This document shows positions 35,623 through 39,640 of a stretch of 39,875 nt of DNA, piece by piece. Both the position numbers and the translations under genes were made by a program. The DNA lies in the NCBI GenBank assembly GCA_011174815.1, contig DUFF01000071.1, positions 1-39,875 on the forward strand, given 5' to 3'. Position 1 is the first letter of the stretch. Each line of letters begins with the position of its first letter. This stretch comes from Dehalococcoidia bacterium (GTDB lineage Bacteria > Chloroflexota > Dehalococcoidia > Dehalococcoidales > RBG-16-60-22). The notes beneath the pieces were generated by a model. The model was not told the DNA's origin, ran no database searches, and saw only the letters and a program-made list of their open reading frames with translations.

Positions 35623-36237
35623 ATGAAGGTCGTCTTTATCGAGGATGTGCCCAGTGTGGCCGAGGCTGGAGAAATCAGGGAGGTAGCTGACGGCTACGGA
35701 CGTAACTACCTTATTCCGAAAAGGCTGGCGGTACTGGCTGATGCCCGGGCAACGCAGATAGTTGAGGCACAGAAGAAAAGAAAAGCCCATCTGGAGACCG
35801 AGACCGAGGAGGAGATGCGGGAGCTGGCCAAGCAGCTGGAGGGGCTGGATATAGATATAAAGGCCAAGGCGGGAGCCAAAGAGAAGCTGTATGGGTCAAT
35901 TACCAATGCCGATATTGCCGAGGAGCTAAACAGAAGCACTGGCTTGGAAGTCGACAAAAGAAAAATCGAGCTGGAGAAACCTATCCATGAGATAGGCAGC
36001 TATGAGATAGCTATCAGGCTGACCAAGGATATTGTTCCCAAGATTAAACTCAGTATCATTGAGGAGGAGGGGAAAGAGGGCAAGGAGAAGAAAGGGAGCA
36101 AAGCAGGGAAGGAAGAGAAAAAGAAGACGACGAAGGCGGAGAAGGTGGTGGAAGAGGCGAAAGCCGCGAAACAAGAGGAGGCAGTAGCAGAAGTGGCGGA
36201 AGCCGAGGTAAAAGAGGAGACGGAGCAAGGTGTATAA
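35623..36237 (+). CDS. rplI: Large ribosomal subunit protein bL9 with extended Lys/Glu-rich tail
   Basis: MKVVFIEDVPSVAEAGEIREVADGYGRNYLIPKRLAVLA, KLYGSITNADIAEEL, then a KE-rich C-terminus. Confidence 0.96.
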   Translation: MKVVFIEDVPSVAEAGEIREVADGYGRNYLIPKRLAVLADARATQIVEAQKKRKAHLETETEEEMRELAKQLEGLDIDIKAKAGAKEKLYGSITNADIAEELNRSTGLEVDKRKIELEKPIHEIGSYEIAIRLTKDIVPKIKLSIIEEEGKEGKEKKGSKAGKEEKKKTTKAEKVVEEAKAAKQEEAVAEVAEAEVKEETEQGV

Positions 36238-37618
36238 CGACAAGTTGCCCCCTCACGATATTGATGCTGAGGAAGCAATCATCGGTTCGCTGCTCATCGA
36301 TGGCACCGCGATCTACAGAATTGCCACGTTTCTAAAAAAGACTGATTTTTATCATGAGCGTAACCAGTGGCTGTATGAGGCCTGCCTTGCGCTCTATGAA
36401 CGTAATGAAGCGATAAACCAGATTACCGTGGCGCAGGAACTGTCCCGGCGCGACAGACTGGAGACAGCTGGTGGTGCCGCCTTCCTGAGCCACCTCATCT
36501 CAGTGTGTCCGACGCCGCTGGACATCGAGCACTATGCCCAGATTGTCTACCGACTGTCCATTATGCGTGGGCTTATCGGTGCCGCCGACCAGATTGCCCG
36601 TGTCGGCTACGAAGCCGGTCCGGACGTGGACACCAGTCTGAGTCGGGCGGAAGACATTCTATTTCGGCTACGCCACGGACACGGCGAGCGTGACTTTGTC
36701 CATATCCGCCAGGTTCTGGACAAGTATTTTGAGGCAGCCCCGCCGCCGGAGGAAGAAGGCCATGCTCGCGAGCAGACGCCCTACGTGCTTTCTAACTTTG
36801 TTGGCCTGGATGAATTTCTGGGAGGCTTTCAGCGCTCCGACCTGGTCATCATTGCCGGCCGTCCCAGCATGGGAAAGTCCAGCTTTGCCCTCAGCGTTGC
36901 CCGGAACGTAGCTGTGGAGCAAAAGGCGTGCGTGGCTCTGTTCAGCCTGGAGATGGCCAGGGATTCGATAGTCTTGCGCCTTCTATCGAGTGAATCCGGT
37001 GTGAATTCGCGGCGGGTCAGGTTTGGTCTTCATACCGAGGACGAGGAAAGGCGTATCATGGAGGCCACCGGTCTCCTTTCCGAATCGGCCATTTTCCTCG
37101 ATGATTCCCCGCAGCTGAGAGTGGTGGAAATGCGCAGTAAAGCTCGCCGACTCTACTTTGAGCGGGGTTTGGACCTGATTATCGTTGATTATCTGCAGCT
37201 GATGCAGGGTGACGGGCGGGGTGAAAACCGCGTTCAGGAAATCAGCTACATTTCCCGTTCCCTTAAAGCGCTTTCCCGCGAGCTGAACGTGCCGGTAATC
37301 GCGGTATCGCAGCTCAGCCGGGCGGTGGAATGGCGGGCATCACACATTCCGCAGCTGGCGGACCTCAGGGAAAGTGGCAGCATTGAGCAGGATGCTGATG
37401 TTGTTATCTTCATCTACCGTGACGAGTATTATCACAGTGAGGAAGAATGGCAACTGCAGCATCCAGACCGGGAGTACCCTCGTGAAGAAGCGGATATCAT
37501 TGTGGCCAAGAACCGGAATGGTCCTACCGGACAGATAAAGTTGCGTTTCCGGCACAATCTGGCCACGTTCTACAATTATGAATACCCAGTAAGTAGCGAA
37601 GAGCCGACGTTGCTATGA
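36230..37618 (+). CDS. dnaB: Replicative DNA helicase DnaB
   Basis: LPPHDIDAEEAIIGSLL, DLVIIAGRPSMGKSSFALSVARN, DLIIVDYLQLMQG, VIAVSQLSRAVEWR, SGSIEQDADVVIFIYRDEYY. GTG start. Confidence 0.97.
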   Translation: MYNDKLPPHDIDAEEAIIGSLLIDGTAIYRIATFLKKTDFYHERNQWLYEACLALYERNEAINQITVAQELSRRDRLETAGGAAFLSHLISVCPTPLDIEHYAQIVYRLSIMRGLIGAADQIARVGYEAGPDVDTSLSRAEDILFRLRHGHGERDFVHIRQVLDKYFEAAPPPEEEGHAREQTPYVLSNFVGLDEFLGGFQRSDLVIIAGRPSMGKSSFALSVARNVAVEQKACVALFSLEMARDSIVLRLLSSESGVNSRRVRFGLHTEDEERRIMEATGLLSESAIFLDDSPQLRVVEMRSKARRLYFERGLDLIIVDYLQLMQGDGRGENRVQEISYISRSLKALSRELNVPVIAVSQLSRAVEWRASHIPQLADLRESGSIEQDADVVIFIYRDEYYHSEEEWQLQHPDREYPREEADIIVAKNRNGPTGQIKLRFRHNLATFYNYEYPVSSEEPTLL

Positions 37619-38325
37619 GCCAGTTCCGCGGGTTTCCAGCCAGAATGGAATTCACCCCCATCCCCAATTATTTTCTCAGCGCTTTGCTGCCTCAGATAGA
37701 TGATATCTGGGAGTTGAAAACAACCCTGCACGTGCTGGCGACGCTCTATCGTAAAAAAGGCTATCCGCGCTTTGTTACCGGCAATGAGCTGCTGGGGAAT
37801 GACGGGCTGATGAAAAGCCTGAAAAAGGAAGGCGAAGCGGCAGAAGAGGTGCTGCGCCAGTCGTTGCAGATGGCCAGCCAGCGGGGAACCTTCATTCACA
37901 TTGCTCTGGAAAGGGACGGCATAGCCGAAGACGTCTATCTTCTAAACACTGAATCGGATCGAAAAGCCGCCGCCAGAATTGAAAGCGGTGAATTGAAGTT
38001 GAGCGGGCTCAAGGCCGTTGAGAAAGGCCGCGTTGCGCTTGAGGAACCGCCGGATATCTTCACCATGTATGAGCAGAATATCGGGATGCTGACCCCGATA
38101 ATCGCCGATGAGCTGCGCGAGGCGGAAAAGCTGTACCCGGAAAGCTGGCTCAGGGACGCCATCAAGGAAGCGGCGGCTCTGAACAAGCGCAACATCCGGT
38201 ATATCACTCGCATTCTGGAACGCTGGTCATCCGAAGGGAAGACTGATGGAACATATCAGCGAGTTTCTAAAAAGGGTCCAGATAAATACCTCAAACAGAG
38301 GTACGGACACATGGTCCGACGTTGA
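37615..38325 (+). CDS. DnaD domain protein
   Basis: MYEQNIGMLTPIIADELREAEKLYPESWLRDAIKEAAALNKRNIRYITRILERWSSEG. ATGA overlap with dnaB. Confidence 0.92.
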   Translation: MSQFRGFPARMEFTPIPNYFLSALLPQIDDIWELKTTLHVLATLYRKKGYPRFVTGNELLGNDGLMKSLKKEGEAAEEVLRQSLQMASQRGTFIHIALERDGIAEDVYLLNTESDRKAAARIESGELKLSGLKAVEKGRVALEEPPDIFTMYEQNIGMLTPIIADELREAEKLYPESWLRDAIKEAAALNKRNIRYITRILERWSSEGKTDGTYQRVSKKGPDKYLKQRYGHMVRR

Positions 38326-39640
38326 GGAAGCTCAATCCCCGAGCGCCAACTGCCCTGTCTGCAAGGGAGCCGGGGTGGTCCATCCGCTACTGCCTTCCGG
38401 GAAGCCGGATTTCAGTCGGGTGGTGCCCTGCCGTTGCGTAAAGGGAGGGCTCGATGATGATAGGCTGGCCCGCCTGAAGCGGTACAGCAACCTGGGAACA
38501 CTCGATCGGTTCAACTTTCAAAACTTGGAGCCCCAGGGCAGGAGCGGGAACCCGAAGAACCAGGAGCAGTTCAGGAAGGTCTACGAAGCGGCGAAAACAT
38601 TTGCCGCTGAACCTGAGGGATGGCTGTTGCTCATCGGTCCCAGCGGGAGCGGCAAAACGCACCTAGCCGCGGCCATTGCCAACGAGCGCATCAGTCGCGG
38701 TCTGCCTGCCTTCTACATCACCGCACCCGACCTTCTCGACCATTTGCGTGCCGCCTTCAATCCCGGCAGCGAAATTCCCTATGACGAGTTTTTTGACCAG
38801 GTACGGAACGCCCCGCTGTTAGTTCTTGACGATTTCGGCGTTCAGAGCAGTACGCCATGGGCGAGGGAGAAACTGGACCAGTTGCTGACCTATCGCTTTA
38901 ACAGCAAACTGCCGACGGTGATTGTGCCCATCGTTCCGTTGGAACAGATGGAGGAAAGGTTGCAGACCCGCCTGACTGACCCGGAACTGAGCAAAGTCTG
39001 TGTCATTGAAAAGAAGCAGCCCGTGTCCCTGGAATATACCTGGGGCCCGGAATTCGAGCTCCAGAAAAGCATGACCTTCAAAAATTTTGATCTGCAACGG
39101 CCTAATCTCTCGCCAGAACAACTTGAGAATCTTGAAATGGCATATCGTGCAGCTTTAAACTTTGCTCAATTACCCGATGGTTGGCTTGTGTTGCAGGGAG
39201 AGAACGGGTGCGGTAAAACCCATCTTGCGGCTGCTATTGTGAATTACCAATTTCAGGCCGAAAAACCAGCATTATTCATCGTAGTTCCAGAGTTTCTCGA
39301 CCATTTACGTTCTGCATTCAACCCAGATAGAAAAGTGTCCTATGACGATTTATTTGAGATAGTGAAGACGGCGCCTATGCTTGTCTTGGATGACTTTGGC
39401 GAGCAGACTGCTACACCGTGGGCACGAGAGAAACTTTATCAGATAATGAACTATCGCTACAATGCAAGGCTGCCAACTGTAATTACCACCGTTTATACCC
39501 TGGATGAGGACGAGATTGAGGGCCGTATTGCATCTAGATTGATAGACGGTAGGCGAAGCAATTTTTTACATATTATTGCACCTGACTATCGCAGTGATGC
39601 ATTGAGCCAGAAGAGGGCTTCCCGCCGCAGGAGCCGTTAG
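38246..39640 (+). CDS. DnaC/IstB-like helicase-loader ATPase with two tandem AAA+ domains
   Basis: CPVCKGAG...CRCVKGG zinc-like motif, Walker A GPSGSGKTHLAAAIAN and again GENGCGKTHLAAAIVN, Walker B LLVLDDFG and MLVLDDFG. Confidence 0.92.
   Translation: MEHISEFLKRVQINTSNRGTDTWSDVEEAQSPSANCPVCKGAGVVHPLLPSGKPDFSRVVPCRCVKGGLDDDRLARLKRYSNLGTLDRFNFQNLEPQGRSGNPKNQEQFRKVYEAAKTFAAEPEGWLLLIGPSGSGKTHLAAAIANERISRGLPAFYITAPDLLDHLRAAFNPGSEIPYDEFFDQVRNAPLLVLDDFGVQSSTPWAREKLDQLLTYRFNSKLPTVIVPIVPLEQMEERLQTRLTDPELSKVCVIEKKQPVSLEYTWGPEFELQKSMTFKNFDLQRPNLSPEQLENLEMAYRAALNFAQLPDGWLVLQGENGCGKTHLAAAIVNYQFQAEKPALFIVVPEFLDHLRSAFNPDRKVSYDDLFEIVKTAPMLVLDDFGEQTATPWAREKLYQIMNYRYNARLPTVITTVYTLDEDEIEGRIASRLIDGRRSNFLHIIAPDYRSDALSQKRASRRRSR

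Follow-up and report, generated by a model that had tools for sequence, protein, structure and literature searches.

The window, by which we mean the whole stretch of DNA analysed here (39,875 nucleotides), is one entire contig from a Dehalococcoidia genome of 1.57 Mb in 103 contigs (84.6% complete, 4.1% contamination). Towards its right end it encodes a replicative helicase DnaB, a DnaD-domain protein and, downstream of both, a protein of 464 aa whose reading frame starts with ATG and contains no internal stop (Table 1). A preliminary description of this DNA had placed the last gene directly after dnaB and dnaD, and both upstream identities were confirmed by Pfam and NCBIfam profiles. The same arrangement prevailed at the 112 loci that encode a two-module protein of this kind: dnaB lay just upstream on the same strand at 105 of them, a DnaD-like ORF adjoined the loader gene at 101, and the order dnaB-dnaD-loader was found at about 100, the flanks being truncated in most of the remainder.

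Table 1. Features of the loader locus. Positions refer to the window; residue numbers refer to the 464-aa protein.
Feature	Position	Strand	Evidence
Replicative helicase DnaB	36230..37618	+	TIGR00665, E 4.7e-149
DnaD-domain protein, between dnaB and loader	37615..38325	+	PF07261/TIGR01446
Tandem-AAA+ protein of Dna[CI] type, predicted replicative helicase loader, 464 aa	38246..39640	+	ORF, PRK08116, orthologues in >100 Chloroflexota genomes
Cys-rich N-terminal motif C36-x2-C39...C62-x-C64, putative zinc site in DnaI-like position	38351..38437	+	Conservation
AAA+ module D1, residues 84-262	38495..39031	+	Pfam, BLASTP of halves, domain HMM, DnaC/DnaI folds in PDB
D1 Walker A GPSGSGKT (K137)	38636..38659	+	K in 33/33 of order
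D1 Walker B LVLDDF (D195, D196)	38819..38836	+	Motif alignment
D1 Sensor I position, Ile229 for Asn (DnaC N203)	38930..38932	+	Alignment to E. coli DnaC 6QEL
D1 Arg-coupler R238 and Arg-finger R242 (R-x3-R, DnaC R216/R220)	38957..38971	+	Conservation in order (counts in text)
AAA+ module D2, residues 263-464	39032..39637	+	Pfam, BLASTP of halves, domain HMM
D2 Walker A GENGCGKT (K324)	39197..39220	+	K in 111/111 tandem loaders
D2 Walker B LVLDDF (D382, D383)	39380..39397	+	Motif alignment
D2 Sensor I position, Val416 for Asn	39491..39493	+	Asn count in order (in text)
D2 R427 (coupler position) and Arg-finger R431	39524..39538	+	Counts in order (in text)
D2 Sensor II R449 (DYR)	39590..39592	+	Counts in order, D2 and D1 (in text)

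Two AAA+ modules in one chain

That the 464-aa chain contains two AAA+ modules, as had been claimed before, was borne out by the positions of its motifs, by BLASTP of the two halves and by Pfam. The segments GKTHLAAAI, LVLDDFG and TPWAREKL start at residues 136 and 323, 192 and 379, and 203 and 390, respectively, with a spacing of 187 residues in each case. Modules D1 and D2 were 48-50% identical (BLASTP of the halves: 48% over 166 aa, E = 3e-56), and an earlier hand count of 44 identities in a 73-residue block (residues 154-226 against 341-413) was reproduced exactly by computation. Pfam domains IstB_IS21 and Bac_DnaA each matched two separate stretches of the protein. The full protein scored 209.9 bits with NCBIfam model PRK08116 (NF005992; cut-off 189, best E 3.8e-62), and this model, which covers one module in 269 positions, matched each half separately. 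A Foldseek search with the predicted structure retrieved 3ecc (TM 0.74) and 2w58 (TM 0.73), and both modules fall into the DnaC/DnaI family in sequence as well as in fold.

A local assembly duplication, raised in the preliminary description as an objection, was excluded, as no long stretch of DNA is repeated between the two copies. A DNA-level search found no direct repeats of more than 14 nt, the 73-residue block was identical between the copies at 143 of 219 nucleotides, and the same architecture occurred in more than 100 independent genomes.

The Cys-rich motif was present once and before the first module only, in agreement with what had been described. It was found ahead of D1 in 108 of 112 tandem loaders, was present in all 39 single-module loaders and was found between the modules in none, and its four Cys residues were invariant across 14 close relatives. 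A comparison of the N-terminal domain with the PDB gave no match, and similarity to the N-terminal domains of DnaI or DnaC was not detected.

Distribution of the tandem architecture

We examined the spread of the trait in Chloroflexota genomes as well as in phages, plasmids and viral contigs. Some match was present in 371 of 400 Chloroflexota genomes, and within the window's class a loader gene was found in 271 of 294 genomes (175 of the 180 good ones). The named records encoding the closest relatives were MAGs of Dehalococcoidia/Dehalococcoidales. A set of 151 loader ORFs taken from the fetched loci, the window's own gene included, comprised 111 with two clean AAA+ modules, one with two modules and an insert in D1, and 39 with a single module, the latter including the Chloroflexus records L051-L055. 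Tandem proteins occurred both within and beyond the window's class. The type of loader had been recognised correctly from the window alone, but the architecture is not a peculiarity of one genome; with at least 111 Chloroflexota loci, the tandem loader turns out to be an old and widespread trait of much of this phylum. The preliminary description had also allowed for relatives already described as two-domain loaders. Two-domain they are, but the open papers searched contained no account of a bacterial helicase loader with two modules; subscription papers and UniProt/InterPro architectures lay outside this search, and an unpublished record or one in annotation alone may exist.

Among phages and plasmids no tandem form was found, none of the matches listed exceeding about 770 bp, the length of one module. 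A first scan of viral sequences for relatives gave no match, and the best 80 viral relatives in a profile scan were all single-module. That the tandem form came from a phage or plasmid was rejected because all phage, plasmid and viral relatives listed had one module. One viral single-module loader (L202, on an IMG/VR contig) was 46% identical to Chloroflexota proteins; it has the Cys motif and lacks the Asn of Sensor I, and perhaps it belongs to a Chloroflexota phage carrying a D2-like module.

Several individual loaders departed from the common pattern. In the tandem loader L112 an insert of about 30 residues within D1 splits the domain match. The Walker A of D1 departs from the pattern in the tandem loaders L108 and L109, and D1 is probably inactive in these two. 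L153 has modules that are 78% identical to each other (family median 49%) with identical Walker A segments, which might reflect recent homogenisation or renewed duplication of the modules. Eleven single-module loaders (L116, L120, L121, L125, L130, L135, L141, L143, L144, L148 and L149) carry about 240 extra N-terminal residues; they come from large Chloroflexota genomes in which a separate dnaD is still nearby. A fusion with DnaD as the source of this extension was not supported, given the retained dnaD and a Pfam scan of the extension in four of these loaders that gave no match.

Probable role as resident helicase loader

DciA (PF05258), the ancestral loader, was detected in 131 of the 400 Chloroflexota genomes, and no genome among the 149 listed with a strong Dna[CI]-type match also had DciA. 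This is the pattern of replacement reported for domesticated dna[CI] genes, one event of the kind having been described in Chloroflexi (PMC5109545). The mutual exclusion of Dna[CI] and DciA indicates that the tandem protein very likely serves as the resident replicative helicase loader and a functional replacement of DciA, and we infer that it loads DnaB. With Dna[CI] loaders it shares the AAA+ group in both modules, a chromosomal position in genomes without DciA and the linkage to replication genes (dnaB and dnaD) that resident loaders commonly show, and it differs from them in having more than one module per chain and an incomplete catalytic set. One AAA+ module per chain is usual for DnaC/DnaI loaders but does not strictly define them.

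The Pfam domain name IstB_IS21 and the single-module relatives on phages and plasmids could also suggest an IS21-type IstB helper of transposition, or a prophage DnaC, as the identity of the 464-aa protein instead of a chromosomal loader. We consider this highly improbable, as the dnaB-dnaD context is conserved and no istA adjoins the gene in the window, as the gene is near-universal in the class and exclusive with DciA, and as no tandem form was among the best 80 viral relatives.

Catalytic and sensor residues of the two modules

Residues K112, N203, R216, R220 and R237 of E. coli DnaC (PMC8213410) served as references and were mapped onto the alignment. Counts were made for 36 single-module loaders, 48 tandem loaders outside the window's class and 33 loci that belong to the window's order or are its closest relatives. 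Arg-coupler and Arg-finger were mapped through the R-x3-R motif that is common to phage and plasmid loaders; this is a judgement call, and an ungapped phmmer alignment would instead match R242 of the window's protein to DnaC R216.

Single-module Chloroflexota loaders had the Sensor I Asn, the coupler, the finger and Sensor II in all 36 cases. Among the tandem loaders outside the class, D1 kept Sensor I in 46 of 48 proteins, coupler and finger in all 48 and Sensor II in 44, whereas D2 kept Sensor I in 13, the coupler in 34, the finger Arg in 38 (with Lys there in 7 more) and Sensor II in 28. Outside the class D1 is the canonical module and D2 the degenerate one, in cis and trans residues alike.

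A different picture was obtained for the window's order. In each module Walker A kept its Lys and Walker B its two Asp residues, and the Sensor I Asn was absent from both (0/33 in D1, 0/33 in D2). D1 had the coupler (32/33) and the finger (33/33) and no Sensor II (0/33), whereas D2 had the finger (32/33) and Sensor II (31/33) and the coupler in only 9 of 33 proteins. The two modules are specialised in opposite ways. The DnaC substitutions N203A, R220D and R237D each abolish ATPase activity, with loading that is partial to normal (PMC8213410). Weak ATP hydrolysis by the tandem loaders of this order is accordingly put forward as a prediction.

Origin of the modules and loss of D1

In module trees the D1 copies grouped together and the D2 copies grouped together with few exceptions (3-4 changes on the tree), and the support of deep branches was low. 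Trees constrained to have all D2 copies in one clade, or all D1 copies against all D2 copies, reached a likelihood above that of the free search, and the AU test did not reject them (p 0.96 and 0.97). A tree of the two halves, as had been proposed for checking the initial observation, placed D1 and D2 in separate groups and is compatible with one old duplication. The simplest reading would be a single duplication before the window's class diverged from the other tandem-bearing lineages.

Several Dehalococcoidia genomes encoded a loader of only about 290 aa in one ORF, in which residues 1 to about 83 were followed directly by residues from about 270 to 462. The module left in these proteins (L182-L192, L110 and L134) was of the D2 type, D1 having been cleanly lost. 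On the D2 tree this loss corresponded to four events on the best tree, at least two of them on well-supported branches. The Sensor I Asn was absent in all 13 D1-less loaders examined, which suggests that this residue is dispensable for the role of the loader in these lineages.

A composition step within the window's gene

The preliminary description had noted that the second copy is more AT-rich. This holds for the window's gene (GC 0.567 in the first copy against 0.460 in the second) but not for the family: the GC3 difference between the modules averaged 0.007 over 111 tandem genes and was positive in 50% of them, the window's gene being the most extreme, and an AT-rich second half was rejected as a family trait. 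In the window's gene GC3 fell from 0.71 in the first half to about 0.41-0.45 in the second. The step coincides with the module boundary at window position 39030 (codon ~262), 0.85 kb before the end of the contig.

The nearest relative switches at the same boundary. On the trees D1 grouped with L033-L036 (99/98) and D2 with L046 (94/90), and the DNA identity to L033-L036 dropped from about 80% to about 67%. Taken with the GC3 step and with a contig end only 235 nt past the gene, this makes it a serious possibility, if one somewhat short of even odds, that the window's gene is a chimera whose N-terminus and D1 stem from one lineage and whose D2 stems from a second, both parents being tandem. Natural recombination between tandem genes at the boundary and misassembly are both possible sources. 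Against a chimera it counts that frame and conserved junction are intact, that GC3 dips similarly in the D2 of the relative L033, and that the D2 of L001 is not especially close to L046 (75% DNA identity). Whichever applies, the two-module architecture itself is not in doubt, since tandem genes are the parents of both parts.

Proposed mechanism and stoichiometry

With a probability of roughly 55%, we propose that the tandem protein is a covalent and asymmetric DnaI-type pseudo-dimer of which three chains act on one DnaB hexamer. B. subtilis DnaI is bound to its DnaB hexamer as three dimers whose monomers make differing contacts (PMC3791466), and two modules with one N-terminal domain per chain fit three chains per helicase in the manner of these dimers. 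Three chains would cap one DnaB hexamer with six AAA+ modules and three N-terminal domains, D1 and D2 alternating in one ring or spiral. Both modules would bind ATP. The Arg-fingers are kept in both modules, which argues for a place of both in AAA+ interfaces, and they would hold the ring together. With the Sensor I Asn lost from both modules, hydrolysis in the window's order would be slow or conditional, so that DnaB would be opened and released in step with ATP binding and contact with ssDNA, not with rapid turnover. In an alternating ring, the cis contribution of D2 (Sensor II) would meet the trans contribution of D1 (coupler and finger) in one class of sites, and the losses would fall in the other. 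The loss of D1, which leaves the N-terminal domain and D2 at the same locus, is easily reconciled with modules in equivalent ring positions. The 3:6 stoichiometry, the placement in the same ring and the weakened hydrolysis are all parts of this mechanism that we infer, and the change in loader stoichiometry suggested in the preliminary description is plausible.

An AlphaFold2 model of the loader contained two folded modules (pLDDT 76, pTM 0.46) with a linker at residues 257-267 of pLDDT <50, and the relative placement of the modules was not confident. A covariation analysis of cis against trans residues, comparing an alternating ring with two tiers, had too few independent pairs.

In a two-tier loader, six chains per DnaB hexamer would form a D1 ring stacked with a D2 ring, as in NSF or p97-like proteins, one tier doing the catalysis and the other having a structural part. 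The tandem loaders outside the class, in which D1 keeps the catalytic set and D2 is eroded, look as expected for an active tier and a structural one, and an alternating ring accounts for them no better than two homotypic tiers do. Tandem AAA+ chains of the p97 type were also among the Foldseek matches over 450-500 columns, but these alignments had an rmsd of about 20 Å and a TM of about 0.2, i.e. no global match, and the domain placement in the model is unreliable. In the window's order, moreover, the losses are divided between the modules and not confined to one, and lineages have repeatedly dropped D1, whose tier would be the one in contact with the N-terminal domain. We regard two tiers as unlikely.

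It is more improbable still that the second module is an accessory for regulation or DNA binding, with one module per chain in the ring (6:6 with DnaB) and the other outside it in contact with DnaA, DnaD or DNA. The short inter-module linker of low confidence in the AlphaFold2 model, the dispensability of D1 in several lineages and the loss of different residues from each module would suit such an arrangement. The Walker residues and the finger, which count in contacts between neighbouring AAA+ modules, are nevertheless kept in both modules (Arg or Lys at the finger in 105/111 D1 and 107/111 D2), which speaks against it.

The pseudo-dimer reading can be taken further, to a version that we hold tentatively and think somewhat unlikely to be right in full. 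The loader of Dehalococcoidales would then be a hydrolysis-weak, ATP-binding pseudo-dimer forming a hetero-ring of three D1-D2 chains on DnaB, in which the sites divide the work, and a homo-hexamer of D2 would take its place after D1 loss. If this were true, the chain itself would fix an asymmetry that other loaders attain only on assembly, and the division of work would consist in D1 supplying coupler and finger and D2 keeping Sensor II.

Comparison with known systems

The tandem loader bears on the number of loader protomers and ATP sites that act at DnaB opening in DnaC/DnaI loaders, and on the equivalence of these protomers. Natural one-module and two-module variants of one loader occur in one class, and with them both stoichiometry and the sharing of work between ATP sites can be put to a direct test. 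It also offers a natural history in which two loader modules would have been fused, different catalytic residues lost from each, and one module removed again in several lineages.

Among known systems IstB, the helper of IS21, is encoded beside istA, whereas the neighbours of the tandem loader are dnaB and dnaD. Type II AAA+ proteins such as NSF and p97 likewise have two AAA+ modules per chain, often one of them degenerate, but belong to another AAA+ clade and did not match the predicted model over its whole structure. The single-module Chloroflexota loaders, e.g. those of Chloroflexus, share with the tandem form the Cys motif, the AAA+ subfamily, mostly a DnaD-type neighbour and the exclusivity with DciA; they differ in having one AAA+ module, whose four catalytic and sensor residues are invariant. 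E. coli DnaC (6QEL/6QEM) resembles the tandem loader in its Walker A and B motifs, R-x3-R coupler and finger and Sensor II, and in replacing DciA, but it has one module and another N-terminal helicase-binding domain, and it needs the Sensor I residue Asn203 for ATPase activity, an Asn absent from both tandem modules. Bacillus DnaI (4M4W, 2W58) has the AAA+ fold, a DnaD-domain partner and a DnaB-type helicase in common with the tandem loader, and possibly also an N-terminal domain of the Cys/zinc type. It differs in its single AAA+ module, its intact Sensor I Asn and an N-terminal domain without detected similarity; it docks on the helicase hexamer as three dimers, and the three-chain model proposed here mirrors that arrangement.
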